NCBI GenBank assembly: GCA_002707025.1
Contig: PALG01000023.1
Span: 62,001-126,000 of the forward strand
Direction of reading: 5' to 3'
Length of the DNA: 64,000 nucleotides
Source: Flavobacteriaceae bacterium
GTDB lineage: Bacteria > Bacteroidota > Bacteroidia > Flavobacteriales > Flavobacteriaceae
Positions 46,571 through 64,000 of this stretch are shown piece by piece. The notes beneath the pieces are model-generated. The model ran no database searches and was not told the DNA's origin. It saw only the letters and a program-made list of their open reading frames with translations. Both the position numbers and the translations under genes were made by a program. Every line of letters begins with the position of its first letter. Positions within the stretch are counted from its first letter, which is position 1.

Positions 46571-48274
46571 CTAAAAACTTGAATTTAGACTAATATGAAC
46601 CTTGGTGTTGTAAAATTCAAAGTTTTGATCCTTGGAGATGCCGTTGGCAATGTTTAAGCGGAATAAACCTGCTTTGGTATTCAATCCTATTCCTAGCCCA
46701 AAGCTATATAACTCGCTGCTTATATCTAAAGTTTTGTTTTCAAAATAGCCCACATCTATAATACTATGTATGTAAGAGCTGCTGTTTAGTAAATAACGGT
46801 ATTCTGTGTTGACCACAGATAAGAGTGATGCATCTATGCTGTTTTCATTGAATCCCCGGATGCTGTTGATTCCCCCAAACCTGAAAAGTTCATTGCTTAG
46901 GTAGGTGTCGCTGGATAGGAATTGTGTATTGTTTTGTAAGTACACCGAGTTTCTTGCATTTAAATTGAAAATTTGACTTAATGTGGCTCCTAATCTTACT
47001 TGGTCTTGTTCGCTTTCGCTTGAGCTTCGCTTTCCGATTTCAGTTTCAAGACCTATAATTGTTTTTAAGGGAAATAGCGGGCTTTTTTGTTGAATGGTGT
47101 AATTTGCTCCTAGTAAAACAAAATCTGATTTGAAATCTTCCACGGCCAAGCCGGCAATATTCTCATTAAGAAGGTTGCTCGATTCGTATGCTTTGTAACC
47201 AGAAAAAAAACTAAGCCTGGGGGAAGGTTGGTAATGGACTTTAGCCAATTGCTCTGTGGTGGAAAATGTACTGTCCCTTTTAAAGATTTTTAATTCCAGG
47301 CTTATCCCAAAGGGCGACTTAAATAAATAGGGTAGATAAGTTCTTACCCTGAAATTCTGTTGGTCGTTTCCATCAGCTTTGTAATTTAACAACAATTGTT
47401 CGCCAAAATTAAGGTTGTTGTTGAGCTCCAAATTTAAATACCCGTTAAATTCCAATTTTTGAGTTTCTTCATTGGTGGCAAACCCTAGTATTCCATCAAA
47501 ATTATTATTGTTGGCTTTTTCTATGTAAAAATAAAGTGTAGTCGAGTCTTTTTTGAAGAGCGCTTCAGGAGGCTTTATAGCATTGGCAAACCCGAGGTTG
47601 TCGATGATGTCATTTTGTTTGTTGATTTTGGTTTGATTGAATATTTTGCCTTTTTTTATCCCGACAAAATACTTTAAAAAGGAAACGGGGAATTTTTCAT
47701 ACCCTTTTATAACAATGCCGTCTATGGTTCTTGTTTGGTTCTTGGTTTGAAGTAACCGCGCGCTTAAAACCTCCCGATTTATTTTTTTAATTTCCGATAG
47801 CTGAAGTTTGCTGAAGGGGTCTCCTTTTTCAGCATTAAATTTAGTGAGTAGTTTGAGGCTTCTTTCTAAGTTTTCAATAGCAACTTCAAAACTGGTGTCT
47901 GAAACAGTTTTGGATATTTTTTTTAATTCGCCAAGGGGGAGGGTTCCTTTTTCAAATTGGATTATAATGGTGTTCCACCGGTTTCCTAGAAAATACGTTG
48001 CTTGGTACGTAGAATCATTTTTTTTTGAAATATTTTCCAATTCAGATTCTAGGTACCCCTGTTTTTGAAAAACCGTTAAAAGGGTTTCGGCTCCGTCTTT
48101 AAGTTCGTTGAAATTTTGAAACTTTTTTTGGAATGCAAGATTTTCCTCAAGGGTTTTTAGGGCATCCTTTTCTGCCGAAATATCCAAATATACATTTTGG
48201 GCTTTTAAGTTTCCATAAAAGAAGATACATATATTAAGGTATAAAATGAAACGTATAATTGAGCTCAAAATCAC
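46571..48274 (-). CDS. Omp85/BamA-superfamily outer-membrane protein
   Basis: A 567-residue outer-membrane protein with a GTG start and a signal peptide (ICIFFYGNLKAQ). The N-terminal half looks like periplasmic POTRA-like modules (TIDGIVIKGYEKFP; GKIFNQTKINKQNDII), and the C-terminal half is a barrel with the L6 motif NSIRGFNENSI (VRGF/Y in BamA and TpsB) and a final strand ending HISLNSSF. It differs from BamA in its shorter length (about 570 versus 800), and may be a TamA-like or two-partner secretion-type member. It stands alone and diverges from the str operon promoter. Confidence 0.8.
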   Translation of the reverse strand: MILSSIIRFILYLNICIFFYGNLKAQNVYLDISAEKDALKTLEENLAFQKKFQNFNELKDGAETLLTVFQKQGYLESELENISKKNDSTYQATYFLGNRWNTIIIQFEKGTLPLGELKKISKTVSDTSFEVAIENLERSLKLLTKFNAEKGDPFSKLQLSEIKKINREVLSARLLQTKNQTRTIDGIVIKGYEKFPVSFLKYFVGIKKGKIFNQTKINKQNDIIDNLGFANAIKPPEALFKKDSTTLYFYIEKANNNNFDGILGFATNEETQKLEFNGYLNLELNNNLNFGEQLLLNYKADGNDQQNFRVRTYLPYLFKSPFGISLELKIFKRDSTFSTTEQLAKVHYQPSPRLSFFSGYKAYESSNLLNENIAGLAVEDFKSDFVLLGANYTIQQKSPLFPLKTIIGLETEIGKRSSSESEQDQVRLGATLSQIFNLNARNSVYLQNNTQFLSSDTYLSNELFRFGGINSIRGFNENSIDASLLSVVNTEYRYLLNSSSYIHSIIDVGYFENKTLDISSELYSFGLGIGLNTKAGLFRLNIANGISKDQNFEFYNTKVHISLNSSF

Positions 48275-48391
48275 GATAAAATCTTCGGTAAATCTAACGT
48301 TAATAAGCGTCTTTTCATATTTGAAAATTTAAATAATTGTAAATCAAAGAAAAATAAACAATAGGGTGTTGTATTAATAAAATTTAATTTC

Positions 48392-48399
48392 TACCTTTG
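48392..48399 (+). promoter_or_regulatory. Promoter of the str/S10 ribosomal super-operon (-7 box TACCTTTG)
   Basis: TACCTTTG fits TAnnTTTG, and a TTG at 48369-48371 lies 20 bases upstream, the expected -33 spacing. Transcription should start near 48405. Just downstream, CCCTT (48403-48407) and AAGGG (48412-48416) could form a small hairpin at or near the 5' end. Confidence 0.6.
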
Positions 48400-48455
48400 C
48401 CGCCCTTTAATAAGGGAAAATTATATCAATTTATTAAGTATAACAAGGATATTAT

Positions 48456-48830
48456 ATGCCAACTATTTCACAATTAGTACGAAAAGGAAGAGCCAAAATA
48501 ACTAAGAAGAGTAAATCGGCTGCTTTGGATTCGTGCCCGCAACGCCGCGGTGTGTGTACACGTGTGTATACGACTACTCCTAAGAAGCCAAACTCTGCAA
48601 TGCGTAAAGTTGCAAGGGTGAGGTTAACCAACGGAAAAGAAGTGAACGCGTACATCGGTGGTGAAGGTCACAACCTCCAAGAGCACTCGATAGTATTGGT
48701 TAGAGGTGGAAGGGTAAAAGATTTGCCAGGTGTGCGTTACCACATTGTTCGTGGAGCTTTGGATACTGCAGGTGTTCAAGGAAGATTACAACGTAGATCT
48801 AAATATGGAGCAAAACGCCCTAAAAAGTAA
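48456..48830 (+). CDS. rpsL: Ribosomal protein uS12
   Basis: Small-subunit decoding-centre protein, 124 residues. [18 protein letters not shown] and [17 protein letters not shown] are intact: the Lys residues that change in streptomycin-resistant strains are wild type, and the Asp that is methylthiolated in other bacteria is present. First gene of the ribosomal cluster, 57 bases after the promoter box; rpsG follows after 25 bases. Confidence 0.99.
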
Positions 48831-48855
48831 TTCAAACAACTTTTAAAGAGAAGCA

Positions 48856-49332
48856 ATGAGAAAAAGACAGGCCAAAAAAAGACCACTTTTACCAGATCCA
48901 AAATTTAACGATCAGTTGGTAACACGTTTTGTGAACAACATGATGTGGGATGGTAAGAAGTCGGTGGCTTTTAAAGTATTCTACGATGCAATTGACATTG
49001 TGGATGAAAAGAAACAAGATGAAGAAAAAACGGCTTTAGAGCTTTGGAAAGATGCACTTTCCAATGTAATGCCTCACGTAGAGGTTCGTAGCCGAAGAGT
49101 TGGAGGGGCCACTTTCCAAATTCCTATGCAAATTCGCCCAGACCGAAAAATTTCAACCGCTATGAAGTGGTTGATTGGTTACGCTCGTAAGCGTAATGAG
49201 AAGTCTATGGCTCAGAAATTGGCTGCTGAAATATTAGCGGCTGCTAAAGAAGAAGGCGCTGCGGTTAAAAAGCGTATGGATACCCATAAAATGGCCGAAG
49301 CAAATAAAGCATTCTCACACTTTAGATTCTAA
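48856..49332 (+). CDS. rpsG: Ribosomal protein uS7
   Basis: Primary rRNA-binding protein of the 30S head, 158 residues ([19 protein letters not shown] at the start, [21 protein letters not shown] in the middle). fusA starts four bases after the stop, as in the E. coli str operon, where S7 represses translation. Confidence 0.99.
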
Positions 49333-49336
49333 AAAA

Positions 49337-51472
49337 ATGGCACAAAGAGATTTAAAATTTACAAGAAATATTGGAATTGCTGCGCATATTGATGCTGGTA
49401 AAACAACAACTACAGAACGTATTCTTTACTATACAGGTGTGAGTCACAAAATTGGTGAGGTGCATGATGGTGCCGCTACCATGGACTGGATGGAGCAAGA
49501 ACAGGAGCGAGGGATTACCATTACTTCTGCGGCTACTACTTGTACGTGGAGATTCCCATTAGAGAATGCGCAACCTACTCCAGATACGAAAGATTACCAT
49601 TTTAACATTATCGATACTCCCGGTCACGTAGATTTTACCGTAGAGGTAAACCGTTCCCTTCGTGTATTGGATGGTCTGGTATTCTTGTTTAGTGCGGTTG
49701 ATGGTGTAGAGCCTCAGTCCGAAACAAACTGGAGATTGGCAGACAATTACAAAGTACCACGTATTGGTTTTGTAAATAAAATGGACCGTCAAGGGTCTAA
49801 CTTCTTGGCTGTTTGTCAGCAGGTAAAAGATATGTTGAAGTCGAATGCTGTGCCAATTGTATTGAACATTGGGGATGAAGCAGACTTTAAGGGAATTATC
49901 GATTTAGTAAAAAACCGTGCCATCATATGGCACGATGAAACTCAAGGAGCTACTTTCGATGTGGTGGATATCCCTGAGGATATGAAAGCAGAAGCTAAAA
50001 AATACCGCGGACTTCTTATTGAAGAAGTTGCTGCGTATGATGAAAATCTGCTTGAAAAATATATGGAAGATGAAGACTCTATTACTGAAGAAGAAGTGCA
50101 TGCTGCGCTTCGTGCTGCAGTAATGGATATGAGCATCATCCCAATGATTTGTGGTTCTGCGTTTAAGAACAAAGGAGTGCAATTCTTGTTGGATGCGGTT
50201 TGTCGTTACCTTCCTTCACCAGTAGATAAAGATGCAATCGATGGAGTAAATCCAGATACGGGTAAAGAAGAAAGCCGTAAGCCGGACGTTACAGCGCCAT
50301 TTGCTGCCTTGGCATTTAAGATTGCTACCGATCCTTTTGTAGGTCGTTTGGCATTCTTCCGTGCGTATTCAGGTAGATTGGATGCTGGTTCTTATGTATT
50401 GAACAATCGTTCTGGTAAGAAAGAGCGTATTTCCCGTATCTACCAGATGCACTCTAACAAGCAAAATGCTATTGATTATATCGAAGCAGGTGATATTGGA
50501 GCTGCTGTTGGTTTTAAGGATATTAAAACTGGAGATACCCTTTCTGATGAAAAAGCACCCATCGTATTGGAATCTATGGATTTCCCAGATCCCGTAATTG
50601 GTATCGCTGTGGAGCCAAAAACAAAAGCTGACGTAGATAAACTAGGTATGGCTCTTGCAAAATTGGCAGAAGAAGATCCAACATTTACCGTACGTACCGA
50701 CGAGGCTTCAGGCCAAACGGTAATCTCAGGTATGGGTGAGCTTCACTTAGATATTATCGTAGATCGTTTAAGACGAGAGTTTAAAGTAGAGGTAAATCAA
50801 GGGAAGCCTCAGGTAGAGTATAAAGAAGCTATTACCAGAAATGCAGATCACAGGGAGGTTTACAAGAAACAAACCGGTGGTCGTGGTAAATTTGCCGATA
50901 TCGTATTTACCTTAGGGCCTGCTGAAGATGAGAAAACTGAAGGACTTGAGTTTGTAAATGAAATTAAAGGGGGTAACATTCCTAAGGAATTTGTTCCTTC
51001 TGTAGAAAAAGGATTCAAGGAAGCCATGAAAAATGGTCCTTTGGCTGGATTCGAAGTGGATAGTATGAGAGTAGTCTTAAAGGATGGATCTTTCCACCCT
51101 GTAGATTCGGATCAGTTGTCTTTCGAATTGGCGGCTAAATTAGGTTTCAAGGCGGCTGCTAAAGCTGCGGGAGCTGTGATATTAGAACCTATCATGAAGC
51201 TGGAAGTATTAACTCCAGAAGAAAATATGGGTGATATCGTAGGAGACCTTAACCGTCGTCGTGGTCAAGTGAACAATATGAGTGATCGTGCTGGTTCAAA
51301 AGTAGTGAAGGCTGAGGTGCCACTTTCTGAAATGTTTGGTTATGTAACCACTTTAAGAACACTTTCTTCAGGACGTGCTACTTCTACCATGGAATTTTCA
51401 CACTATGCTGAAACTCCTTCTAATATTTCAGAAGAAGTAATTGCAGCAGCAAAAGGAACCGCTAACGTTTAA
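49337..51472 (+). CDS. fusA: Elongation factor G
   Basis: GTPase that drives translocation and, with RRF, ribosome recycling. The 711-residue protein has G1 [15 protein letters not shown], switch 1 [13 protein letters not shown]3 DTPGHVDF and G4 NKMD, and all five domains to the C-terminus ([22 protein letters not shown]). It is followed by rpsJ after 11 bases; tuf, which follows fusA in E. coli, is missing here, as is usual in Bacteroidota. Confidence 0.98.
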
Positions 51473-51483
51473 TATTTTCAGCA

Positions 51484-51789
51484 ATGAGTCAAAAAATCAG
51501 AATTAAATTAAAATCTTACGATCATAATTTAGTAGACAAATCTGCTGAAAAAATCGTAAAAACAGTAAAAAGCACTGGGGCTGTGGTAACAGGGCCAATT
51601 CCATTACCTACCCATAAAAAGATCTTTACCGTGTTGCGTTCGCCACACGTAAACAAGAAAAGTAGAGAGCAATTCCAATTAAGTTCTTACAAAAGATTAT
51701 TGGATATCTACAGTTCTTCTTCCAAAACCATCGACGCTCTAATGAAATTAGAGTTGCCAAGTGGTGTGGAAGTAGAGATCAAGGTGTAA
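51484..51789 (+). CDS. rpsJ: Ribosomal protein uS10
   Basis: 30S head protein, also NusE in antitermination complexes; 101 residues ([40 protein letters not shown]). It joins the str part to the S10 part of the cluster. The gap to rplC is 143 bases and strikingly structured, unlike the short spacing elsewhere. Confidence 0.99.
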
Positions 51790-51932
51790 TTGATATAGCA
51801 CGCAATCGTGCAGACATGTCCTAAGCTGCGAGCGAGGGAAAAACGGAGAACAAGATAACATTCACAGGGCTGAATTTATTTTGGCCCTGTTTTAATTTGA
51901 ATACTAATATTAATAACTAATAAATAATAACT
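51790..51932 (+). promoter_or_regulatory. Structured rpsJ-rplC spacer: candidate ribosomal-protein leader/attenuator
   Basis: The spacer holds two hairpins. The first is GCACG (51798-51802), loop CAAT, CGTGC (51807-51811). The second is ACAGGGC (51864-51870) with GCCCTGT (51884-51890), a 7-bp stem followed by TTTAATTT, the form of an intrinsic terminator. Between them lies a purine-rich stretch. A terminator-like hairpin inside an otherwise tightly spaced operon suggests attenuation or a ribosomal-protein binding site, as for L4 in the E. coli S10 leader, but the site and partner are inferred. Confidence 0.5.
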
Positions 51933-52544
51933 ATGTCTGGGTTAATTGGAAAAAAGATAGGGATGACCAGCATCTTTGACGAGAAGGGGAAGAATATTCC
52001 TTGTACCGTTATTGAGGCAGGCCCCTGTGTTGTTACCCAAGTCAGAACCAATGAGGTTGACGGGTATGAAGCTCTTCAACTTGGTTTCGATGACAAAAAG
52101 ACTGTCAACAAAGCTGCCGAAGGTCACGCCAAGAAAGCAGGAACTGTTGCCAAGCGCAAAGTTGTCGAATTCCAAGGTTTCGAAGATGCTTACAAATTAG
52201 GTGATACAATCACCGTAGAGCACTTTATCGAAGGAGAATTCGTGGATATTTCTGGGACTTCCAAAGGTAAAGGATTTCAAGGAGTTGTAAAACGTCACGG
52301 TTTTGGTGGTGTGGGTCAATCTACTCACGGTCAGCATAACCGTTTAAGAGCTCCTGGTTCTATTGGTGCTGCTTCGTATCCTGCGAGAGTTTTCAAGGGA
52401 ATGCGTATGGCTGGCCAAATGGGAAATGAGAAAGTAAAAGTGGAAAACCTAAAAGTGTTGAAAGTGGTTCCTGAAAAGAACTTACTTGTTGTGAAAGGAT
52501 GTATTCCTGGACACAAAAACGCTTATGTAACGATTACAAAGTAA
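51933..52544 (+). CDS. rplC: Ribosomal protein uL3
   Basis: Early-assembly 50S protein near the peptidyl transferase centre, 203 residues ([20 protein letters not shown] at the start). The extension loop reads [20 protein letters not shown], with the Gln that is methylated in E. coli. Its TAA overlaps the ATG of rplD (TAATG). Confidence 0.99.
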
Positions 52545-53173
52545 TGAAGGTAGCAGTTTTAGATAAAAACGGAAAAGATACGGGTAGAAAGGTAGAGCTT
52601 TCTAAAGACGTATTCGGAATTGAGCCTAACAATCACGCTGTATATCTTGATGTAAAGCAATACCTTGCCAATCAAAGACAAGGAACGCACAAAGCAAAAG
52701 AGCGTGCTGAAATTACTGGTTCAACCAGAAAAATCAAGAAGCAAAAAGGAACTGGTACGGCCCGTGCAGGAAGTATCAAGTCTGGAGTATTTAAAGGAGG
52801 AGGAAGAATGTTTGGTCCAAGACCCAGAAACTACTCTTTCAAATTGAATAAAAACCTAAAGCGTTTGGCGCGTCGTTCAGCTTTAACAATGAAAGCTAAC
52901 GATAAAGCCATCGTGGTATTGGAAGACTTTAATATGGACACTCCTAAGACCAAAGAATTCACTTCAGTATTGAAGTCGTTAGGTCTTGAAAACAAAAAAT
53001 CTTTGTTTGTGTTGGGAGAGTCAAATAATAATGTATATTTGTCGTCTCGTAATTTGAAAGGCGCTGAAGTTATAACAAACTCAGAATTAAGTACTTATAA
53101 AATTATGAATGCAAATAACGTTGTGTTATTTGAAGGTTCTTTGGAAGGAATTGCAGAAAACTTAAGTAAATAG
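52544..53173 (+). CDS. rplD: Ribosomal protein uL4
   Basis: 50S protein lining the peptide exit tunnel, 209 residues. ATG 52544 ([19 protein letters not shown]) overlaps the rplC stop by one base. The tunnel loop is [27 protein letters not shown], written here in two parts: [17 protein letters not shown] and [10 protein letters not shown]. In E. coli L4 represses the S10 operon; the spacer before rplC is a candidate target. Confidence 0.98.
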
Positions 53174-53180
53174 AAACAAG

Positions 53181-53471
53181 ATGGACATCTTAATAAAACC
53201 TATTATTACAGAAAAAGCTACAAGAGAAGCGGAGGATAAAAACCGTTTTACTTTTGTAGTAAACCCAAAGGCGAATAAGATAGAAATCAAAAATGCGGTG
53301 GAAGCTGCATATGGTGTTTCTGTGACTAAAGTTCGCACAATGAATGTCCGCCCAGATAGACGTGTTCGTTATACGAAAACGGGTATCCAAACTGGTAAAA
53401 CAAATGCTTACAAAAAAGCAATTGTACAGGTGGCGGAAGGTGATACAATCGATTTTTACGCTAACATCTAA
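53181..53471 (+). CDS. rplW: Ribosomal protein uL23
   Basis: Exit-tunnel-rim protein that docks trigger factor and SRP; 96 residues (MDILIKPIITEKATREAEDK, NKIEIKNAVEAAYGVSVTKV). Starts seven bases after the rplD stop. Confidence 0.98.
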   Translation: MDILIKPIITEKATREAEDKNRFTFVVNPKANKIEIKNAVEAAYGVSVTKVRTMNVRPDRRVRYTKTGIQTGKTNAYKKAIVQVAEGDTIDFYANI

Positions 53472-53496
53472 TTATTAGATTTAAAGAAAGACAACA

Positions 53497-54327
53497 ATGT
53501 CAGTAAGAAAATTAAAGCCTATCACCCCGGGACAGCGTTTTAGAGTTGTTAATGGTTTTGACGCCATTACTACTGATAAGCCGGAGAAGAGTTTACTTGC
53601 TCCGAAAAAACGTTCTGGTGGTAGAAACAGTCAAGGAAAAATGACCATGCGCTATAGAGGTGGAGGTCATAAAAAACGTTATAGAATCATAGATTTTAAA
53701 CGTGATAAGCACGGTATTCCCGCAACCGTTGCTACGATCGAATACGATCCTAACCGTACTGCATTTATCGCTTTGGTAAATTACCAAGATGGTGAAAAGC
53801 GTTACGTTATTGCACAAAATGGACTTCAAGTAGGTCAAAATATTGTTTCTGGCGAGAGCGTTGCTCCCGAAATTGGAAACAGTATGGCCTTAGCAAATAT
53901 CCCATTAGGTACCATTATATCTTGTATTGAACTTCACCCAGGACAAGGGGCCGTGATGGCTCGTAGTGCCGGGGCTTTTGCTCAATTAATGGCAAGAGAT
54001 GGAAAAGGAAAATACGCTACTGTGAAATTGCCATCTGGGGAAACCCGTTTAATCCTTGCTACATGTATGGCAACTATTGGGGCGGTTTCGAACAGTGACC
54101 ACCAATTGATGGTTTCCGGTAAAGCAGGTAGATCAAGATGGTTGGGTAGAAGACCAAGAACTAGAGCTGTAGTAATGAACCCAGTAGATCACCCAATGGG
54201 TGGTGGGGAAGGACGTGCTTCTGGAGGACACCCAAGATCAAGAAAGGGTATTCCTGCAAAAGGATACAGAACTCGTTCTAAAACTAAAGCAAGTAATAAA
54301 TATATCGTAGAACGTAGAAAGAAATAA
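53497..54327 (+). CDS. rplB: Ribosomal protein uL2
   Basis: 50S protein needed for subunit association and peptidyl transfer; 276 residues. The conserved C-terminal [18 protein letters not shown] holds the His close to the peptidyl transferase centre. The N-terminus ([20 protein letters not shown]) is normal. Follows rplW by 25 bases. Confidence 0.99.
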
Positions 54328-54330
54328 ACT

Positions 54331-54609
54331 ATGGCAAGATCATTAAAAAAGGGACCTTACGTTCACTATAAGCTAGAGAATAAAGTTCAGCAAAATGTTG
54401 AGTCTAATAAGAAAACCGTTATCAAAACTTGGTCACGTGCTTCTATGATTACTCCAGACTTTGTTGGGCAAACCATTGCGGTTCATAATGGAAAACAATT
54501 TGTTCCTGTATACGTAACCGAAAACATGGTAGGACATAAATTAGGAGAATTTTCACCTACAAGATCATTCCGTGGTCATGCAGGTGCTAAAAACAAAGGA
54601 AAAAAGTAA
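54331..54609 (+). CDS. rpsS: Ribosomal protein uS19
   Basis: 30S head protein contacting the A-site finger; 92 residues ([36 protein letters not shown]). It starts three bases after rplB. Confidence 0.99.
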
Positions 54610-54615
54610 TAAGCC

Positions 54616-55023
54616 ATGGGAGTTCGTAAAAGAGAAAGAGCAGAACAAATCAAAGAGGCAAAGAAGACACAGTATTTTGCCAAATTGAACAATTGCCCTA
54701 CATCACCCAGAAAAATGCGTCTGGTAGCAGACTTAATTCGTGGTGAAAAGGTAAATAAAGCCCTTAATATATTGAAGTTCAGTAACAAAGAGGCTTCCAT
54801 TCGTTTGGAAAAACTCCTTCTTTCTGCCATTGCAAATTGGCAAGCAAAGAATGAGGATGCTTCTCTAGAAGATGCTGATCTTTTTGTAAAGGAAGTTCGT
54901 GTGGATGGTGGTAGAATGTTGAAAAGACTTCGCCCAGCACCACAAGGACGTGCGCATAGAATTAGAAAACGTTCCAACCACGTAACAGTTGTGCTTGGAG
55001 CTAACGATAACACACAAAGCTAG
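54616..55023 (+). CDS. rplV: Ribosomal protein uL22
   Basis: 50S protein whose hairpin lines the exit tunnel; 135 residues. The core is [20 protein letters not shown] and the hairpin region [20 protein letters not shown], without mutations known to give macrolide resistance. The N-terminus carries a charged extension ([16 protein letters not shown]). Confidence 0.98.
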
Positions 55024-55030
55024 AAAGTAA

Positions 55031-55750
55031 ATGGGACAGAAAACAAATCCAATCGGAAACCGCTTAGGTATCATTAGAGGATGGGAATCCAACTGGTACG
55101 GAGGTAACGACTACGGCGATAAATTAGCCGAGGACGATAAGATTAGAAAATATGTTCACGCTCGTTTAAGTAAAGCTAGTGTGTCTAGGGTAATTATTGA
55201 GCGTACCCTAAAACTTGTAACCGTTACTATCACCACGGCTCGCCCAGGTATCATTATTGGTAAAGGCGGCCAGGAGGTAGACAAGTTAAAGGAAGAGCTT
55301 AAAAAAATTACCGGTAAAGAAGTACAGATCAATATCCATGAGATTAAAAGACCTGAACTTGATGCTAACCTTGTAGCTGCGAGTATTGCAAGACAGATTG
55401 AGAATCGTATCTCTTACCGTCGGGCAATTAAAATGGCTATCGCTGCTGCTATGCGTATGAACGCAGAGGGAATCAAGATTCAAATCTCAGGCCGTTTGAA
55501 TGGTGCCGAAATGGCCCGTTCGGAAGCTTACAAAGATGGTCGTATTCCTTTATCAACCTTTAGAGCCGATATAGACTATGCCTTAGTGGAAGCTCATACT
55601 ACCTATGGTAGACTGGGAGTAAAGGTATGGATTATGAAAGGTGAAGTATATGGTAAAAGAGAGCTTTCTCCATTAGTAGGTCTTTCAAAGAAAGGTTCTG
55701 GAAAAGGTTCTGGTCGAGGTGGTAACAAATCACGTCGTAACAGAAAGTAA
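55031..55750 (+). CDS. rpsC: Ribosomal protein uS3
   Basis: 30S protein of the mRNA entry tunnel with helicase role; 239 residues. KH domain motif [20 protein letters not shown]-terminal domain [20 protein letters not shown], and a Gly/Ser/Lys-rich tail ([20 protein letters not shown]). It starts seven bases after rplV. Confidence 0.99.
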
Positions 55751-55769
55751 TTTTTAAAGATTAAAGAAA

Positions 55770-56189
55770 ATGTTACAACCTAAAAGAACAAAATACCGTA
55801 AACAACAAAAGGGACGTATGAAAGGTAACGCTGGAAGAGGAAACCAGCTATCTTACGGAACTTTTGGTATCAAATCATTAGACTCACAGTTCTTGACAGC
55901 TCGTCAAATTGAAGCAGCGCGTATTGCCGCTACCCGTTATATGAAAAGGGAAGGTTCCATCTGGATCATGATATTTCCAGATAAGCCAATCACGAAGAAG
56001 CCTCTCGAGGTACGTATGGGTAAAGGTAAGGGTGCTGTAGAATATTGGGCTGCTGTTGTTAAACCTGGTCGAATTTTGTTTGAAGTATCTGGAGTGCCTA
56101 TGGAAACTGCTAAAGAGGCTTTACGTCTTGCGGCTCAAAAACTTCCAGTGCGTACAAAATTTGTAGTATCCAGAGACTATCAAGCTTAA
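55770..56189 (+). CDS. rplP: Ribosomal protein uL16
   Basis: 50S A-site region protein, 139 residues ([20 protein letters not shown]). [14 protein letters not shown] marks the loop reaching the peptidyl transferase centre, which includes the Arg that is hydroxylated in other bacteria. Confidence 0.99.
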
Positions 56190-56208
56190 TTTTTTGAAAT
56201 TGTCATTT

Positions 56209-56400
56209 ATGAAACAGTCAGAAATTAAAGAAGCATCAACAGCGGAGCTACAAGAAAAGTTAGCCGAATTAAAAAAGGCAAATACCGATCTTAAAATAGC
56301 ACACGCTATATCACCGTTGGAAAATCCAATTCAGCTTAGAGCTCAAAGAAAAGCGATAGCTAGAATTGCGACCGAACTAACAAAAAGAGAAGTGCAATAA
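56209..56400 (+). CDS. rpmC: Ribosomal protein uL29
   Basis: Small helical protein beside the exit tunnel, 63 residues. ATG 56209 (MKQSEIKEASTAELQEKL) is chosen; an in-frame TTG 15 bases upstream adds only MKLSF. NPIQLRAQRKAIARIATEL closes the family signature. Confidence 0.97.
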   Translation: MKQSEIKEASTAELQEKLAELKKANTDLKIAHAISPLENPIQLRAQRKAIARIATELTKREVQ

Positions 56401-56415
56401 TTGCGAAGCTGAAAG

Positions 56416-56673
56416 ATGGAAAAAAGAAACTTAAGAAAAGAACGTATAGGTGTAGTAACCAGTAACAAAATGGAAAAATCCATTGTGGTTAGCGAGGTGA
56501 AAAAAGTAAAACACCCAATGTACGGAAAGTTCGTTTTGAAAACGAAAAAGTACGTTGCACACGACGAGAAAAACGACTGCAACGAAGGAGATACTGTAAA
56601 GATCATGGAAACAAGACCTTTAAGTAAAACCAAGTGTTGGAGATTAGTAGAAATTATTGAAAGAGCGAAGTAA
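56416..56673 (+). CDS. rpsQ: Ribosomal protein uS17
   Basis: Early 30S assembly protein of OB fold, 85 residues ([39 protein letters not shown]). rplN starts two bases after its stop. Confidence 0.98.
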
Positions 56674-56675
56674 TC

Positions 56676-57044
56676 ATGATACAGCAAGAATCTAGACTTA
56701 AAGTAGCAGACAACACCGGAGCCAAAGAAGTACTTTGTATTCGTGTGCTTGGAGGAACCAAAAGAAGATATGCTTCTATTGGTGACAAAATTGTAGTTTC
56801 CGTAAAAGAGGCAACTCCCAACGGGAACGTTAAAAAAGGAACTGTTTCTACCGCTGTAGTGGTACGTACTGTAAAAGAGGTGAGAAGACCCGATGGCTCC
56901 TATATTCGTTTCGACGATAACGCCTGTGTGTTGCTAAATGCGCAAGGTGAAATGAGAGGAACCCGTGTTTTTGGACCTGTAGCAAGAGAGCTTCGTGATA
57001 AGCAATTTATGAAAATAGTATCATTGGCACCAGAGGTGCTTTAA
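56676..57044 (+). CDS. rplN: Ribosomal protein uL14
   Basis: 50S protein of the subunit interface, 122 residues ([40 protein letters not shown]). First gene of the classical spc block. Confidence 0.99.
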
Positions 57045-57056
57045 TACGAAAAAAAG

Positions 57057-57371
57057 ATGGCAAAGCTTAAATTAAAGTCAGGAGATAGCGTAATAGTAAC
57101 TGCTGGAGACCATAAAGGAATGGAAGGTACCGTATTACGTGTATTTCTTGAAAAAAATAAAGCAATAGTTGAGGGAGTTAACCTTGTAAAGAAGCATGAG
57201 AAGCCAAGCGCGGCCAATCCTCAGGGTGGAATTACCGAAAAAGAAGCTCCTATTCATATTTCAAACCTTTCTTTGAAAGATCCTAAATCTGGTGAAGCCA
57301 CTAGAGTAGGTTATAAAATGGAAGGAGATAAAAAAGTACGATTTGCTAAAAAATCGAATCAAGTATTATAG
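57057..57371 (+). CDS. rplX: Ribosomal protein uL24
   Basis: Assembly-initiator protein of the 50S subunit, 104 residues. The KOW motif is [20 protein letters not shown], and [20 protein letters not shown] follows as in the family. It precedes rplE by two bases. Confidence 0.98.
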
Positions 57372-57373
57372 TT

Positions 57374-57925
57374 ATGGGATATACACCAAGACTTAAGGAA
57401 GAATACAAGAGCAGAGTAATCAATGCTCTTACAGATGAATTTGGCTACAATAATGTAATGCAGGTGCCAAAACTAGAGAAAATAGTAGTTTCTCGAGGAG
57501 TAGGTAGTGCAGTAGCTGATAAGAAGTTGATCGAATATTCGGTTGACGAATTAACGAAGATTACCGGTCAAAAAGCCGTGGCAACCATTTCTAAGAAAGA
57601 CGTGGCAACATTTAAGTTGCGTAAAGGGATGCCTATTGGTGCTAAGGTAACACTTCGTGGAGAAAGAATGTACGAATTCCTAGATAGGTTAATTACTTCC
57701 GCTTTACCACGTGTACGTGATTTTAACGGAATTAATGCTACAGGATTTGACGGTAGAGGTAACTACTCTTTAGGAGTTACCGAGCAAATTATTTTCCCTG
57801 AAATCGATATCGATAAAGTGAAGAAAATTGAAGGAATGAATATTACTTTCATTACTTCTGCCGAAACAGATCAAGAAGCAAAATCTTTATTAACCCAACT
57901 AGGATTACCTTTTAAAAAGAATTAA
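57374..57925 (+). CDS. rplE: Ribosomal protein uL5
   Basis: 5S rRNA-binding protein of the central protuberance, 183 residues. [20 protein letters not shown], the [20 protein letters not shown] region and [20 protein letters not shown] are intact. Two bases separate it from rplX and three from rpsN. Confidence 0.99.
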
Positions 57926-57928
57926 GAG

Positions 57929-58198
57929 ATGGCAAAAGAATCAATGAAAGCCCGTGAGGTAAAGCGTCAAAAATTGGTAGAAAAGTATGCAGAAAAGCGT
58001 AAGGCTTTAAAAGAAGCTGGAGATTATGAAGCATTGCAAAAACTACCAAAAAATGCTTCTCCTGTACGTTTGCACAACCGTTGTAAGCTTACCGGAAGAC
58101 CAAGAGGGTATATGAGAACTTTCGGGATTTCACGTGTAATGTTCCGTGAAATGGCCAACAAAGGTTTAATTCCAGGAGTTAGAAAAGCTAGCTGGTAA
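57929..58198 (+). CDS. rpsN: Ribosomal protein uS14, zinc-free long form
   Basis: 30S head protein of 89 residues. [20 protein letters not shown] is the conserved part; only one Cys is present, so this is the C-minus form that does not bind zinc. The gap to rpsH is 64 bases and can fold. Confidence 0.98.
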
Positions 58199-58262
58199 TA
58201 ATAAGTTTAACTGGTTGTAGGTTTCAGTATTACTGGAAAACCACATCCGCAATTTAATATAA
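58199..58262 (+). promoter_or_regulatory. rpsN-rpsH spacer with potential hairpin
   Basis: TGGT (58212-58215) with ACCA (58240-58243) and the inner TTTCAGT (58222-58228) with ACTGGAAA (58232-58239, one bulge) can form a two-part stem around a three-base loop. S8 controls the spc operon in E. coli; here the fold would sit directly before rpsH. This is a suggestion from position and folding by eye only. Confidence 0.35.
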
Positions 58263-58664
58263 ATGAATACAGATCCCATTGCAGATTTTCTAACCAGAGT
58301 TAGAAATGCAGTACTTGCAGGCCACAGAGTAGTGGAGGTTCCTGCATCTAACATTAAAAAGGAAATCACCAAAATCCTTTTTGATCAAGGCTATATTTTA
58401 AGCTATAAGTTTGAAGAAGGTAACAACCCTCAAGGAACTATCAAGATCGCTTTAAAGTATGATAAGCTTACCAAAGATCCGGTGATTAAAAATATTGAAA
58501 GAGTAAGTAAACCAGGTTTACGTAAATATTCTGGTGCTTCCGGGATGCCTCGTGTATTGAACGGTTTGGGAATTGCTATCGTGTCTACCTCTGCTGGGGT
58601 TATGACTGCGAAGCAGGCCGAATCTCAAAATGTAGGTGGAGAAGTATTGTGTTACGTTTACTAA
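58263..58664 (+). CDS. rpsH: Ribosomal protein uS8
   Basis: Primary 16S-binding protein of the 30S platform, 133 residues (NTDPIADFLTRVRNAVLAGH; LGIAIVSTSAGVMTAKQAES). In E. coli it represses the spc operon. The upstream spacer is longer than usual and structured. Confidence 0.99.
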   Translation: MNTDPIADFLTRVRNAVLAGHRVVEVPASNIKKEITKILFDQGYILSYKFEEGNNPQGTIKIALKYDKLTKDPVIKNIERVSKPGLRKYSGASGMPRVLNGLGIAIVSTSAGVMTAKQAESQNVGGEVLCYVY

Positions 58665-58677
58665 AAAAGACTAAGAA

Positions 58678-59220
58678 ATGTCAAGAATAGGAAATAGCCC
58701 AGTAGTAATTCCAGACGGTGTAACCGTCGAGGTAAAGGAAAATACCATTACCGTAAAAGGGAAATTAGGCGAGTTAACCCAAGATTTTGATGGAGTTAGC
58801 GTAAAAGTAGAAGAAGGAACTGTTTTAGTTGAACGTCCTTCTGATGCAAAAGATCACAGAGCAAAACATGGTTTGTACCGAGCTCTTGTAAACAATATGA
58901 TTCAAGGTGTGTCTCAAGGATGGACCAAGCAATTAGAATTGGTTGGAGTTGGGTATCGTGCCAGTAACCAAGGCCAAAAATTGGATATCGCGATTGGTTT
59001 TTCTCACAACATCGTGATGGATATCGCGCCAGAGGTGACAGTGGAAACCATTAGTGAAAAAGGAAAGAATCCTATTGTAAAATTAACCTCTCACGATAAA
59101 CAATTGGTGGGGCAAGTTGCGGCAAAGATTCGCGCTTTCCGTAAGCCAGAGCCTTACAAAGGAAAAGGTATTAAGTTTGTTGGAGAACAAATTAGAAGAA
59201 AAGCAGGTAAATCTGCATAA
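58678..59220 (+). CDS. rplF: Ribosomal protein uL6
   Basis: 50S protein near the factor-binding site, 180 residues, with two repeated alpha/beta domains (SRIGNSPVVIPDGVTVEVKE at the start; KPEPYKGKGIKFVGEQIRRK at the end). Confidence 0.99.
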   Translation: MSRIGNSPVVIPDGVTVEVKENTITVKGKLGELTQDFDGVSVKVEEGTVLVERPSDAKDHRAKHGLYRALVNNMIQGVSQGWTKQLELVGVGYRASNQGQKLDIAIGFSHNIVMDIAPEVTVETISEKGKNPIVKLTSHDKQLVGQVAAKIRAFRKPEPYKGKGIKFVGEQIRRKAGKSA

Positions 59221-59231
59221 GACATTAAGTT

Positions 59232-59588
59232 ATGGCATTATCTAAAAGCAAAAGAAGAGAAAGAATTCGCTTCAGAATTAGGAAAACGGTTTCTGGAACT
59301 GAACAACGTCCTCGTTTGGCAGTTTTCAGAAGCAATAAAGAAATTTATGCGCAACTTATTGACGATGTAAATGGTAAAACCATTACTGCTGCATCTTCAA
59401 GAGATAAAGATATTGATACCGCTAAAGTAGACAAAAGCGAAGCCGCTAAATTAGTAGGCAAAGCAATTGCTGAAAAAGCTATTAAAGCAGGTTTTGAAAC
59501 CGTTGCTTTCGATAGAGGTGGTTATTTGTACCACGGAAGAGTTAAATCATTAGCAGAAGGTGCTCGTGAGGGCGGACTAAAATTCTAA
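59232..59588 (+). CDS. rplR: Ribosomal protein uL18
   Basis: 5S rRNA-binding protein, 118 residues ([40 protein letters not shown]). Follows rplF by 11 bases and precedes rpsE by four. Confidence 0.99.
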
Positions 59589-59592
59589 GAAT

Positions 59593-60117
59593 ATGTACCA
59601 AGATTATAAAAACGTAGAAATAGTAAAGCCCGGAGGTCTTGAATTGAAAGATCGTTTGGTAGGAGTACAACGTGTAACTAAAGTAACCAAAGGTGGTAGA
59701 GCATTCGGTTTTTCTGCTATTGTTGTAGTAGGAGATGAAAAAGGAGTGGTTGGCCACGGATTGGGAAAATCTAAAGATGTAGCTAGTGCCATTGCCAAAG
59801 CTATTGAAGATGCTAAAAAGAATCTGGTTCGCATTCCTTTAAATAAAGTAACCCTTCCGCACGAGCAAAAAGGAAAGTACGGAGGTGCTAGAGTAACTTT
59901 GTTACCGGCAGCACCTGGTACAGGAGTAATTGCTGGTGGTGCGGTACGTGCGGTACTGGAAGCAGTTGGAGTTCACGATGTATTATCTAAGTCTCAAGGA
60001 TCCTCAAATCCACATAACGTGGTAAAAGCTACTTTCGATGCTTTACTTCAATTAAGAAGTGCCGAAACCGTAGCCAAGCAAAGAGGTATTTCCTTGGAAA
60101 AATTGTATAAAGGTTAA
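59593..60117 (+). CDS. rpsE: Ribosomal protein uS5
   Basis: 30S protein of the decoding region and mRNA entry, 174 residues. Double-stranded-RNA-binding-like domain [20 protein letters not shown] and C-terminal [20 protein letters not shown]. No change typical of spectinomycin resistance is visible in the KGGRAF loop. Confidence 0.99.
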
Positions 60118-60130
60118 AATACTAGAAGTT

Positions 60131-60310
60131 ATGGCAAAGATAAAAGTAACAAAGGTTCGTAGCGACATTAAACGTCCTGAAACCCAAAAGAGAACTCTAA
60201 AAGCTCTAGGTTTGAAAAAAATTGGTCAAACTGTAGAGCATGATGATACGCCAACGATTCTTGGTATGATAAAAAAAGTTAATCACCTAGTTTCCGTAGA
60301 AACTAAATAA
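60131..60310 (+). CDS. rpmD: Ribosomal protein uL30
   Basis: A short gene of 59 residues: it begins MAKIKVTKVRSDIKRPETQK and ends MIKKVNHLVSVETK, the expected L30 fold (IKRPETQKRTLKALGLKKIG). It sits between rpsE and rplO exactly where L30 occurs in bacterial spc operons. Gap of 13 bases to rpsE and 11 to rplO. Confidence 0.96.
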   Translation: MAKIKVTKVRSDIKRPETQKRTLKALGLKKIGQTVEHDDTPTILGMIKKVNHLVSVETK

Positions 60311-60321
60311 GATATTGAACA

Positions 60322-60774
60322 ATGGATTTAAGTAATCTAAAACCTGCTGAAGGTTCTGTAAAAAAACAGGGAAAGCGCGTAGGGCGAGGCCAAGGTTCTG
60401 GTAAAGCTGGAACAGCTGGTCGTGGGCACAAAGGTGCGAAGTCACGTTCTGGATACTCCAAAAAATTAGGTTTTGAAGGAGGGCAAATGCCATTACAACG
60501 TCGTGTTCCTAAGTTTGGATTTACAAATATTAACCGTAAAGAATACCAAGGGGTAAATATTGATACCCTTCAACAATTGGTAGATGAAAAGAAAATTAAG
60601 GATACTGTAGATTTTGATACCTTAGTAAGTTTGAGGTTGGCCAGTAAGAATGATCTAGTAAAAATACTAGGTCGTGGAGAGCTTAAGGCAAAATTAACTG
60701 TAACAGCTCATAAATTTACCGCTAGTGCTAAAGCTGCTATTGAGGCTGCTGGTGGGGAAGCCAAAACCTTATAA
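60322..60774 (+). CDS. rplO: Ribosomal protein uL15
   Basis: Late-assembly 50S protein, 150 residues; N-terminal Gly/Arg-rich KRVGRGQGSGKAGTAGRGHK and GFEGGQMPLQRRVPKFGFTN are typical. Confidence 0.99.
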   Translation: MDLSNLKPAEGSVKKQGKRVGRGQGSGKAGTAGRGHKGAKSRSGYSKKLGFEGGQMPLQRRVPKFGFTNINRKEYQGVNIDTLQQLVDEKKIKDTVDFDTLVSLRLASKNDLVKILGRGELKAKLTVTAHKFTASAKAAIEAAGGEAKTL

Positions 60775-60785
60775 TACGATACAGG

Positions 60786-62129
60786 ATGAAATTTATCGAA
60801 ACCATAAAAAATGTTTACAAAATAGAGGAGCTTCGAAACCGAATCATCCTTACCCTAGGGTTGTTGCTTGTGTATCGTTTTGGAGCACAAGTGGTGCTTC
60901 CGGGAATCGATGCAGCGAGACTCACAGAGTTTGCTGGAAAATTTGATGATGGCGGTATAGGAGGTCTATTGAACGCCTTTACAGGAGGTGCTTTTGCAAA
61001 TGCCTCTATTTTTGCATTGGGAATCATGCCTTACATTTCTGCATCCATTGTGGTGCAGTTAATGCAAATAGCAGTTCCTTACCTTCAGAAACTTCAGAAA
61101 GAAGGAGAAAGCGGAAGGAAAAAGATCAATCAAATTACCCGATGGTTAACCATCGGTATTTGTTTGGTGCAAGCACCCAGTTATCTAGCGGGTCTACCTG
61201 CATTAGGAGTGCCACAAGAAGCTTTTGTGATGGGGCAATCCGTCATGTTTTATGTTTCTTCTATCTCCATACTGGTAACAGGATGTATTTTTGCCATGTG
61301 GTTAGGTGAAAAAATTACTGATAAAGGAATTGGAAACGGTATCTCCATTCTTATTATGGTTGGGATCATCGCTAGACTACCCTTAACTTTTGCTCAAGAA
61401 TTTGCGTCTAGAGTATTAGAATCTAACGGTGGCTTAATTATGATTTTAATTGAATTGGTAATATGGTTTGTGATTATTTTACTTTCCATTATGCTGGTCA
61501 TGGCTGTTCGTAAAATTCCTGTACAGTATGCAAGAAGAACCGCAAGTGGCAGCTACGAGAAGAATGTATTTGGTGCTAGACAATTTATTCCCTTAAAGCT
61601 GAATGCTTCTGGGGTAATGCCTATCATCTTTGCACAAGCAATTATGTTTGTGCCTTCTGCAGTGGCAAGTCTTTCCGAAAGTGAATTGGCACAGACGATA
61701 CGAGCTAATTTTAGTGATATATTTGGATTGTGGTACAATGTGGTGTTTGCCATTCTGATTATCATATTCACCTATTTCTATACAGCTATTACCGTCCCTA
61801 CCAATAAAATGGCAGACGACTTGAAACGAAGTGGTGGTTTTATTCCTGGTATCAAACCTGGAACCGAAACTGCTGAATATTTGGACCGAATTATGTCCCA
61901 GATTACCTTCCCTGGATCTATATTCTTGGCATTGATTGCCATCTTCCCTGCTTTTGTAGTGAAGATTTTAGGAATCCAACAAGGTTGGGCATTATTCTAC
62001 GGTGGTACCTCACTACTTATTATGGTTGGGGTAGCGATCGACACAATGCAACAAATTAACTCCTACTTATTGAACCGTCACTACGATGGTTTGATGAAAA
62101 GTGGAAAAAACAGAAAAGCAGTAGCTTAA
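60786..62129 (+). CDS. secY: Protein translocase subunit SecY
   Basis: Ten-span channel of the Sec translocon, 447 residues. The plug and first spans ([21 protein letters not shown]), the [14 protein letters not shown] segment, and the cytosolic loops [10 protein letters not shown] and [19 protein letters not shown] that contact the ribosome and SecA are intact. infA begins one base after its stop. adk, its neighbour in many bacteria, is absent here. Confidence 0.99.
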
Positions 62130-62130
62130 T

Positions 62131-62346
62131 ATGGCAAAACAACCCGCAATAGAACAAGACGGAACCATTGTAGAGGCATTGTCCAATGCAATGTTTCGTG
62201 TAGAACTTGAAAACGGACATATTGTAACTGCGCATATATCCGGGAAGATGCGTATGCACTATATCAAATTACTTCCTGGGGATAAAGTAAAACTGGAAAT
62301 GAGCCCTTACGATTTAACCAAGGCTCGTATAACTTATAGATACTAA
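62131..62346 (+). CDS. infA: Translation initiation factor IF-1
   Basis: Small OB-fold factor, 71 residues ([40 protein letters not shown]). It binds the 30S A site during initiation. One base separates it from secY and four from rpmJ. Confidence 0.99.
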
Positions 62347-62350
62347 AGAG

Positions 62351-62467
62351 ATGAAAGTAAGAGCATCAGTTAAAAAAAGAAGTGCCGACTGCAAAATTGT
62401 ACGCAGGAAAGGCCGTTTGTATGTAATTAACAAAAAGAACCCAAGGTTTAAACAAAGACAAGGATAA
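62351..62467 (+). CDS. rpmJ: Ribosomal protein bL36, zinc-free form
   Basis: A 38-residue gene: [20 protein letters not shown] at the start, [17 protein letters not shown] at the end. The family length and [15 protein letters not shown] fit bL36. Only one Cys is present, so the C-x2-C-x12-C-x4-H zinc site is missing and this is the zinc-independent type. It lies between infA and rpsM, the normal bacterial place. Confidence 0.96.
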
Positions 62468-62469
62468 TT

Positions 62470-62844
62470 ATGGCAAGAATCGCAGGTGTAGATATCCCAA
62501 AACAAAAAAGGGGTGTAATCGCGTTAACGTATATCTTTGGAATCGGTAAAAGCCGTGCCAAGGATATCCTAGAAAAAGCCGGAGTAGACGAAGACAAAAA
62601 AGTAAACGATTGGAACGATGATGAAATCGGTGCCATTCGTGATGCTGTTTCGTACTTCAAGATCGAAGGTGAATTACGTAGTGAAATCCAATTGAACATC
62701 AAACGTTTGATGGATATTGGTTGTTACAGAGGTATTCGTCACAGAACGGGACTTCCTTTAAGAGGACAACGTACCAAGAATAACTCGAGAACTAGAAAAG
62801 GAAAACGTAAAACAGTTGCTAACAAGAAAAAAGCAACTAAATAA
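62470..62844 (+). CDS. rpsM: Ribosomal protein uS13
   Basis: 30S head protein contacting the P-site tRNA and the 50S, 124 residues ([40 protein letters not shown]). It opens the alpha-operon part. Confidence 0.99.
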
Positions 62845-62855
62845 TACCTAGAGAT

Positions 62856-63254
62856 ATGGCAAAGTCTAGTACAAAAGCAAAAAACACAAAAAAACGTAAA
62901 GTTAATGTGGAAGCTAATGGTGAAGCACATATCGCTTCTTCATTCAATAACATTATCATTTCGTTGACCAATAAGAACGGAGATGTGATCTCTTGGTCTT
63001 CCGCCGGTAAAATGGGCTTTAGAGGATCTAAGAAAAACACTCCTTACGCTGCTCAGCTTGCTGCTGAAGATGCTGCAGGTGTTGCACATGAAGCGGGTCT
63101 TCGTAAAGTGAAAGTATATGTTAAGGGACCTGGAAATGGTAGGGAATCTGCCATTCGTTCACTTCACAATGCAGGAATTGAAGTAACTGAAATTATTGAT
63201 GTTACTCCAATGCCGCACAACGGGTGTCGTCCTCCAAAACGTAGAAGAGTTTAA
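62856..63254 (+). CDS. rpsK: Ribosomal protein uS11
   Basis: 30S platform protein next to the mRNA exit, 132 residues ([38 protein letters not shown]). Its N-terminus is extended with Lys. The gap to rpsD is 85 bases. Confidence 0.99.
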
Positions 63255-63339
63255 TAATTTATAATAAGTATCAACCTGAAGGTGCGAGAACTAGAGGATG
63301 ACCTTAATTTAGTTTTCCCTTCAAAATTCAATTTTTAAA
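63255..63339 (+). promoter_or_regulatory. rpsK-rpsD spacer with alternative hairpins
   Basis: An AGGT (63280-63283) can pair either with ACCT just upstream (63274-63277) or, as AAGGT (63279-63283), with ACCTT (63301-63305) downstream, so two mutually exclusive small folds are possible ahead of rpsD. S4 controls the alpha operon in E. coli. Stems are short; the call rests mainly on the gap length. Confidence 0.3.
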
Positions 63340-63945: not shown

Positions 63946-63969
63946 TCTAAAACACACACGAGTCAAATT

Positions 63970-64000
63970 ATGGCAGTATTTACATTTCAAAAGCCTGATA
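63970..64000 (+). CDS. rpoA: RNA polymerase alpha subunit (first 31 bases)
   Basis: The open frame starting at ATG 63970 reads MAVFTFQKPD before the window ends, the usual first residues of flavobacterial RpoA, and it lies directly after rpsD as in all alpha operons. Only ten residues are visible, so the call rests mainly on position. Confidence 0.85.
   Translation, partial: MAVFTFQKPD

Follow-up and report, generated by a model that had tools for sequence, protein, structure and literature searches.

The window (the whole stretch of DNA that was analysed, 64 000 nucleotides) carries on its forward strand the genes rpsL, rpsG, fusA and rpsJ, followed by rplC, rplD and further ribosomal protein (r-protein) genes. 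All eight proteins that were tested (S12, S7, EF-G, S10, L3, L4, L23 and S4) were confirmed by Pfam. The rpsJ gene ends at position 51789 and rplC starts at 51933, leaving a gap of 143 nt (51790–51932), exactly as stated in the original prediction, which had been made from the sequence of the window. Both stems named there were also located: a GCACG/CGTGC hairpin at 51798–51802/51807–51811 and an ACAGGGC/GCCCTGT stem at 51864–51870/51884–51890, the latter within a terminator of 11 pairs. The most conserved part of the spacer, a 34-nt core between the two hairpins (51814–51847), was absent from that prediction. The features of the locus are as follows.

48369–48399, + strand: promoter-like TTG-N20-TACCTTTG 5′ of rpsL, from sequence
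51484–51789, + strand: rpsJ (S10), Pfam PF00338
51798–51811, + strand: P0, small hairpin GCACG-CAAT-CGTGC, presence kept by position, sequence variable
51814–51847, + strand: core ACAUGUCC...GGAAAAACGGA, presumed ligand-binding domain, from the R2 model match (see below) and conservation
51819–51839, + strand: P1 hairpin, 51819–51821/51837–51839 with inner part 51825–51826/51832–51833, from pair counts
51840–51846, + strand: 3′ part of the core, predicted to be able to pair with 51887–51893 (outer antiterminator helix)
51851–51858, + strand: 5′ arm of the inner antiterminator helix, partner 51876–51883, from prediction and controls
51860–51875, + strand: apical antiterminator hairpin AUUCA/UGAAU (51860–51864/51871–51875), predicted, containing the terminator 5′ arm
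51864–51890, + strand: intrinsic terminator hairpin, 11 pairs, 51864–51874/51880–51890, from fold and covariation
51890–51898, + strand: U-rich terminator tail UUUUAAUUU, from sequence
51933–52544, + strand: rplC (L3), first gene 3′ of the element, Pfam PF00297
52544–53173, + strand: rplD (L4), encoding the likeliest candidate ligand, Pfam PF00573

The 143-nt spacer folds with a predicted energy of −31.7 kcal/mol (z = −3.5, with 2/200 shuffles equally good), and the segment 51812–51898 by itself gives z = −2.7, again with 2/200 shuffles equally good. Base 51890 is both the last base of the terminator stem and the first of the U-rich tail. The region 51864–51898 is a good predicted intrinsic terminator, with a GC-rich hairpin and a U-tract, and its hairpin (51864–51890) ranks first among the terminator-like sites of 47000–64000. 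There are 19 such sites in this region compared with a shuffle mean of 13.6 (s.d. 4.5) and, since this is just slightly above expectation, the case is built on conservation and not on the hairpin by itself.

A conserved core and a covarying terminator

A scan with the L3 protein of the window gave 80 named loci, of which the nearest by L3 (92%) is a metagenome-assembled genome (MAG) titled Aequorivita. Spacers were parsed for 78 of these loci and for the genome of the window itself; 48 of the resulting 79 contain the core, and the 31 coreless spacers include members of other families. From an alignment of the 48 elements we built covariance model R1 (core and terminator); a second model, R2, covers the core only and scores 51.7 bits in the genome of the window. 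In the sampled family f1, which we infer from the titles of the named loci to be the Flavobacteriaceae, R1 matches 201 of 249 genomes (182 of the 210 good ones) and R2 matches 198. In a sample of the order, R1 was found at E ≤ 1e-5 in 24 of 296 genomes, all of the same family; the family is represented there by 50 genomes, and the 26 misses comprise 25 members of genus g135 and one other. The element is dispensable, as R1 has no match in 48 of the 249 family genomes and in 26 of the 50 in the order sample. Across a sample of the phylum, R1 matched 27 of 395 genomes at E ≤ 0.01. Eighteen of these belong to the family, G320 with a weak score of 27.4 bits; the other nine do not, and none of the nine exceeds 38.7 bits. 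The best of these nine (L112), the one that was inspected, has neither S10 nor L3 nearby.

The genomic position of the element is nearly constant. Among 127 loci (L086–L112 and L125–L224), which are not all independent because some genomes entered twice (e.g. G050 as L086 and L130), the element is flanked by S10 and L3 in 125; L3 alone is present in one (L179), and another (L112) has neither and is a chance match. The element thus lies just 5′ of an r-protein gene, rplC, in 126 of the 127, the position expected of an r-protein leader. A search of 18 genomes with R2 gave 15 matches, the nine best of which lie between rpsJ and rplC; the six weak ones (L234–L239, ≤23.9 bits) lie elsewhere, with S10 and L3 absent. 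Weak matches of R1 elsewhere (the 13 inspected loci L112–L124) lack a pattern-defined core as well as S10 and L3. This constancy bears on the reading of the core as a riboswitch, in which its ligand would be a small molecule, for example a nucleotide serving as a growth signal, instead of a protein. A compact, highly conserved unpaired sequence adjoining an expression platform would suit such an RNA. Known riboswitch classes usually precede several kinds of gene, however, whereas all core-bearing matches in the inspected loci precede rplC, and we regard a riboswitch as quite improbable in comparison with the r-protein leader set out below.

The core has the layout ACAUGUCC-hairpin-GGAAARAYGG, which in the window reads ACAUGUCC-hairpin-GGAAAAACGG. 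Its 3′ end is GGAAAAACG in 144 of 159 elements and GGAAAGACG, GGAAAAATG, AGAAAAACG or GGAAAGATG in the others. The invariance of AUGUC and GAAARAYG is partly built in, since the pattern by which elements were selected required these letters; the same pattern is satisfied by all 125 parsed spacers that were selected with R1 instead. The hairpin in the middle of the core (P1) has a 3 × 3 internal loop in most cores (NGA opposite RAR in many relatives), which is replaced by Watson–Crick pairs in some. Across 100 model-aligned elements, one of its inner pairs is GC 85 times and AU 15 times. Tested on 49 cores alone, P1 exceeds shuffles in the number of cells paired, in cells changed on both sides and in covariation score (0/500 shuffles each), but not in pairs with a double change (136/500) or in further pair types (415/500). 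The pairing of P1 is thus modestly supported by covariation; much of the core is invariant, and covariation is therefore unable to prove the core fold. Upstream of the core, the presence of P0 is kept with little regard to its sequence: for the 40 nt 5′ of the core, the predicted fold is more stable than in shuffles (p ≤ 0.05) in 99 of the 134 spacers of sufficient length (mean z = −2.7), 25 of the 159 being too short.

Two further identities of the core were considered. A k-turn, which is defined by a 3-nt bulge, is rejected because the internal loop here is symmetric and without one. Mimicry of rRNA was examined against four rRNA loci of relatives, in which short patterns from the core gave scattered near-matches only and the core model, run unfiltered, reached at best 9.5 bits (E of about 1), nothing clearly above chance. 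Sequence likeness to rRNA was thus not detected in these four loci, and no ligand is backed by mimicry. The assembly of the genome of the window (99.93% complete, 33 contigs) has itself no 23S rRNA match, which is probably an assembly gap.

The core begins with AUG, and it could be asked whether AUGUCC opens a tiny open reading frame (AUG UCC UAA in the window) the translation of which steers folding. The initial AUG is required by the selection pattern, yet is also found in all of the spacers selected with R1. Of 159 elements, 66 have a stop as their third codon and 93 a sense codon (GGA in 42, TTA in 17 and CGA in 14 being the commonest), so that the frame is not kept. With a stop in so few, this reading was rejected as extremely improbable.

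The terminator covaries strongly. In 100 model-aligned elements, 98.6% of its cells are paired and seven of ten pairs show double-sided changes. For the whole structure 87.8% of cells are paired, compared with 83.3% when the 3′ letters are shuffled (0/500 as good) and 27–52% on sliding; these percentages are biased upwards by the kinship of the sequences and by the use of the model itself to fit the alignment. A hairpin with a T-rich tail was detected in all 159 elements (median −14.0 kcal/mol, range −19.7 to −2.0 kcal/mol), a count that includes, as do all others, a few elements in which the pick of the detector is doubtful (e.g. L031, L041 and L069). The conserved pairing in relatives on which the original prediction had staked its case is therefore present, with covariation in the terminator and, modestly, in P1.

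Predicted alternative folds, promoter-like boxes and proposed attenuation

Pairing is also possible between the A-rich stretch 3′ of the core and the terminator, of which it would engage the loop and 3′ arm. Energy tests of this alternative were carried out on the 159 elements after these had been made unique. The two arms of the antiterminator from the same genome pair at −5.49 kcal/mol, compared with −3.87 kcal/mol when arms are taken from other genomes (0/2000 permutations as good), the own arm having a median rank of 28th of 159, and with −2.68 kcal/mol for shuffled arms, than which the own arms are better in 149 of 159. When transcripts are cut before the terminator closes, the inner antiterminator helix is part of the minimum free-energy structure in 129 of 159, against 74.4 with shuffled arms. 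In a second test, the terminator was forbidden by soft constraints and native sequences were compared with sequences in which either the arms or the core tail had been shuffled; the native antiterminator state lies below the shuffled-arm state in 154 and below the shuffled-core-tail state in 146 of 159. Of the two antiterminator helices, the inner one is predicted in 156 of 159 elements and the outer one, formed between the core sequence AAAAACGG and the foot and U-tract of the terminator, in 80. A mutually exclusive antiterminator is thus supported by the shuffling and cross-pairing controls. Compensatory changes, scored on a tree for 156 of the 159 elements, are clearest where C faces G (9/9, with three independent pairs and none in the wrong direction), which falls short of significance because three independent pairs are too few. 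A G in the 5′ arm faces C in one of six cases and A in five (four independent pairs, mostly unchanged), which leaves a pairing rule for this class unsupported.

These results bear on one alternative, a constitutive partial terminator that would lower the expression of rplC and the genes beyond it by a fixed fraction, the sequence upstream sensing nothing. The good hairpin and U-tract exist, and the terminator state is the more stable in many relatives, being lower by a median of 4.8 kcal/mol (the gap does not exceed 1 kcal/mol in 41 and 3 kcal/mol in 58 of the 159); in the window the two states are separated by 0.2 kcal/mol (antiterminator −22.8 kcal/mol, terminator −23.0 kcal/mol). A fixed terminator would, however, leave unexplained both the core that is kept in 198 of the 249 family genomes and the antiterminator, which is not a general property of terminators: in a control set of 34 ordinary terminators from the window and loci L001–L080, native minus shuffled energy averages −0.29 kcal/mol compared with −4.90 kcal/mol for the elements, and a gain of at least 2 kcal/mol is seen in 1/34 compared with 149/159. 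We therefore consider a constitutive terminator unlikely and retain the reading as a switch.

Promoter-like sequences were located with the motif TAnnTTTGC, which we take to be the Bacteroidetes −7 box. In the window it occurs 5′ of rpsL (48392–48400) and inside fusA (50887) and is absent from the rpsJ–rplC spacer; over the whole window its frequency is at chance level (16 found, 16.6 expected). As the spacer is without such a box, rplC is here probably reached via read-through, a promoter within rpsJ or fusA being a possible alternative route. Among the 159 unique spacers, 11 have the box between the rpsJ stop codon and the core (shuffles: mean 0.68, largest 2); the looser TAnnTTTG also gives 11 against 5.2 expected, and the stricter form was chosen after the matches to the loose motif were known. 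At locus L179 (− strand, 600–1801), the element precedes rplC with S10 absent from the 890 nt upstream; the upstream open frame of 264 residues is unmatched in Pfam, and 5′ of the element there is a TAAATTTGC box. A rearrangement may have split the str and S10 parts at this locus. To judge from L179, where it is kept without S10, and from the 11 spacers with a box 5′ of the core, the element goes with rplC. Some lineages would have it as the leader of a separate transcript; in others, this genome among them, it would be an in-line attenuator.

Among the 31 coreless spacers, 14 have TAnnTTTGC in the rpsJ–rplC gap (1.1 on average in shuffles, 5 at most), many of them from Flavobacterium (L044, L045, L047, L052–L054, L057, L058, L061–L065 and L067), and several of these appear by eye to have a terminator after rpsJ. 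In coreless relatives a separate promoter seems to replace the attenuator.

The attachment of the element to rplC is at odds with a role for it at the end of the preceding transcript, either as a small RNA acting in trans through the core or as a stabilizing 3′ end of the rpsJ mRNA. A core and terminator closing a well expressed mRNA, as that of rpsJ presumably is, form the usual layout of small RNAs derived from 3′ untranslated regions, and P0 could shield the end. Against this, the element of L179 stays with rplC where S10 is missing, promoter-like boxes separate rpsJ from the element in the 11 spacers described above and an antiterminator would have no obvious use in a small RNA. We judge this alternative very improbable.

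We consider it likely that the spacer is a cis-acting attenuator RNA, an r-protein leader for the rplC–rplD–rplW–rplB... unit that would sense an r-protein, most probably L4. Conservation, position, terminator covariation, the modestly supported pairing of P1 and two-state potential are the computed properties behind this model; the ligand, the direction of the response and termination in vivo are the parts of it that we infer. The nascent RNA would have two exclusive folds downstream of the conserved core. In the antiterminator, the A-rich stretch would take up the loop of the terminator and the upper part of its 3′ arm; for roughly one element in two, a further helix is predicted between the AAAAACGG of the core and the foot and U-tract of the terminator. 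The alternative fold would have a closed terminator, and transcription would end before rplC. With an excess of the r-protein (most likely L4, less likely L3), the core would be bound and its AAAAACGG withdrawn from the antiterminator, allowing the terminator to form; in a shortage the polymerase would read through. In this genome the str genes (rpsL, rpsG, fusA and rpsJ) would be split from the later genes on one read-through transcript, while, with a promoter close by on its 5′ side, the element would be an ordinary 5′ leader in some relatives. The original proposal that expression from rplC onwards is separable from that of rpsL–rpsG–fusA–rpsJ is borne out in part, in that a conserved attenuator-like RNA is predicted in the spacer and the split looks complete in some relatives, namely those with boxes (11/159) and L179. 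That the control point has moved to a place after rpsJ, as was also proposed there, is a possible reading of an element that was found in one family only.

According to Eckert and Weinberg (PMC7247131), a known ligand encoded within the operon is the best guess for the ligand of a leader; L4 is therefore the first candidate, a tentative choice that we hold at slightly less than even likelihood. L3 is a less likely second. The possible candidates also include two proteins that act as regulators elsewhere, S4, which is encoded downstream, and S8, which presumably is. If the model is true, a control point inside the str–S10 supercluster sets S12, S7, EF-G and S10 apart from the rest.

Conserved silent sites in rplC

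A codon scan of seven genes (1205 codons; loci L001–L069, 64–69 loci per gene) found runs of at least three codons with normalized entropy below 0.12 in rplC alone, in exactly three blocks; isolated low-entropy codons occur in the other six genes too.

51933–51946, + strand: rplC block 1, AUGUCUGGGUUAAU, codons 1–5, almost no synonymous variation
52035–52048, + strand: rplC block 2, ACCCAAGUCAGAAC, codons 35–39, almost no synonymous variation
52083–52094, + strand: rplC block 3, GGUUUCGAUGAC, codons 51–54, invariant at synonymous sites in 159 genes

In the 159 element-bearing genomes, codons 2–4 (TCT GGG TTA), 35–38 (ACC CAA GTC AGA) and 51–54 (GGT TTC GAT GAC) have normalized entropies of 0 to 0.06, while in rpsJ of the same genomes not one codon falls below 0.1. 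Codons 2–14 are also constrained relative to the rest in rpsJ (0.49 versus 0.74) and rplD (0.45 versus 0.74), and block 1 may be partly a general gene-start effect; blocks 2 and 3 are not so explained. The start of rplC, AUGUCUGGGUUAAUUGGAAAAAA (51933–51962), and the core of the leader, AUGUCC...GGAAAAACGG (51816–51846), have AUGUCY and GGAAAAA in common, which could be chance (Gly-Lys-Lys codons) or a common binding site.

Whether or not the leader is there, all 50 genomes that represent the family in the order sample have exact, correctly spaced copies of blocks 2 and 3. So do two of the three genomes from f2, another family of the order, but no other genome among the 296. The blocks are independent of the leader, being kept in the 25 members of g135 that R1 does not match. 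Among the named loci without the leader, most Flavobacteriaceae keep the blocks; they are absent from two MAGs titled Flavobacteriaceae (L014 and L070) and from the more distant L072, L074, L075 and L078–L080, and L076 has an exact block 2 and a block 3 with a single change. For block 3, a pairing partner is predicted in codons 26–29 (52008–52018). An RNAalifold model of rplC nucleotides 1–175 from 38 sequences is ambiguous, with double changes in 2/33 pairs, and serves as no more than a pointer; comparison of the blocks with the four rRNA loci gave short or mismatched matches only.

The blocks are perhaps a structured intragenic RNA, a candidate translational operator, and hint at a further RNA element that is invisible if spacers alone are inspected. 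Such an in-frame RNA would be the older of the two, as it is kept without the attenuator and in two f2 genomes. That the S10–spc–alpha genes of Flavobacteriaceae are controlled via rplC by two new RNAs, a bistable attenuator and an in-frame translational operator responding to the same r-protein, is a speculative extension that we regard as rather doubtful.

Comparison with known systems

With Rfam 15, no family reaches its gathering threshold in the window; the comparison with ribosomal leaders suggested in the original prediction thus yielded no leader or other family above threshold. Under relaxed settings, DapZ matches over the element on the + strand (51752–51897) with 17.5 bits where 56 would be needed (E = 1.1), and sca_ncR27 was likewise a sub-threshold match in the window. 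The region 47500–64000 gave four sub-threshold matches away from the element, and 20 relatives gave one CRISPR-repeat model (L137), outside the element. The 85-nt gap ahead of rpsD (63255–63339 of the window) has no Rfam match even at E ≤ 10; an S4 leader has been reported ahead of rpsD in Flavobacteria (Table 1 of PMC7247131).

In the accessible parts of the open-licence literature (including PMC2864571 and PMC9723704) we found no description of an rplC leader in Flavobacteriaceae, nor is one contained in the corresponding parts of two other motif collections (including PMC11109978). The latter source describes the rpsJ motif RLC-47-1 of Peptostreptococcaceae, a candidate r-leader of the S10 gene; it lies in the 5′ UTR of rpsJ and in a different phylum from the element described here. 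In Eckert and Weinberg (2020; PMC7247131), r-leaders of Flavobacteria are exemplified by those of S4, S15, S16 and L19, which are likewise family-restricted structured RNAs before r-protein genes. Table 1 of that source has no Flavobacteria motif before rplC, its only motif with rplC as the first gene being an L4 candidate of Archaeoglobi.

The balancing of r-protein synthesis in Bacteroidota seems little studied, and a family-wide attenuator with two predicted states, natural absences and a defined core offers a testable case; the attenuator could become an Rfam family. Among the systems most like it is the S10 operon of E. coli, which is under the control of uL4 through premature termination at an intrinsic terminator in the RNA preceding the genes (PMC10931766). 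An intrinsic attenuator hairpin for S10-operon genes is common to both. The E. coli leader, however, opens the operon and precedes rpsJ, whereas the present element lies after rpsJ and measures about 80 nt from core to tail; by position it does not fit the E. coli L4 leader family. In the rplJL (L10–L12) attenuator of Bacillus subtilis, binding of an r-protein selects between antiterminator and terminator (PMC10931766), a choice that resembles the proposed rplC switch. That attenuator differs in operon, ligand and RNA, having a kink-turn domain and an anti-antiterminator. On the best reading, the element is a family-specific r-protein leader and would exert a type of control that is known from other bacteria but of which we found no description for these genes in this family.
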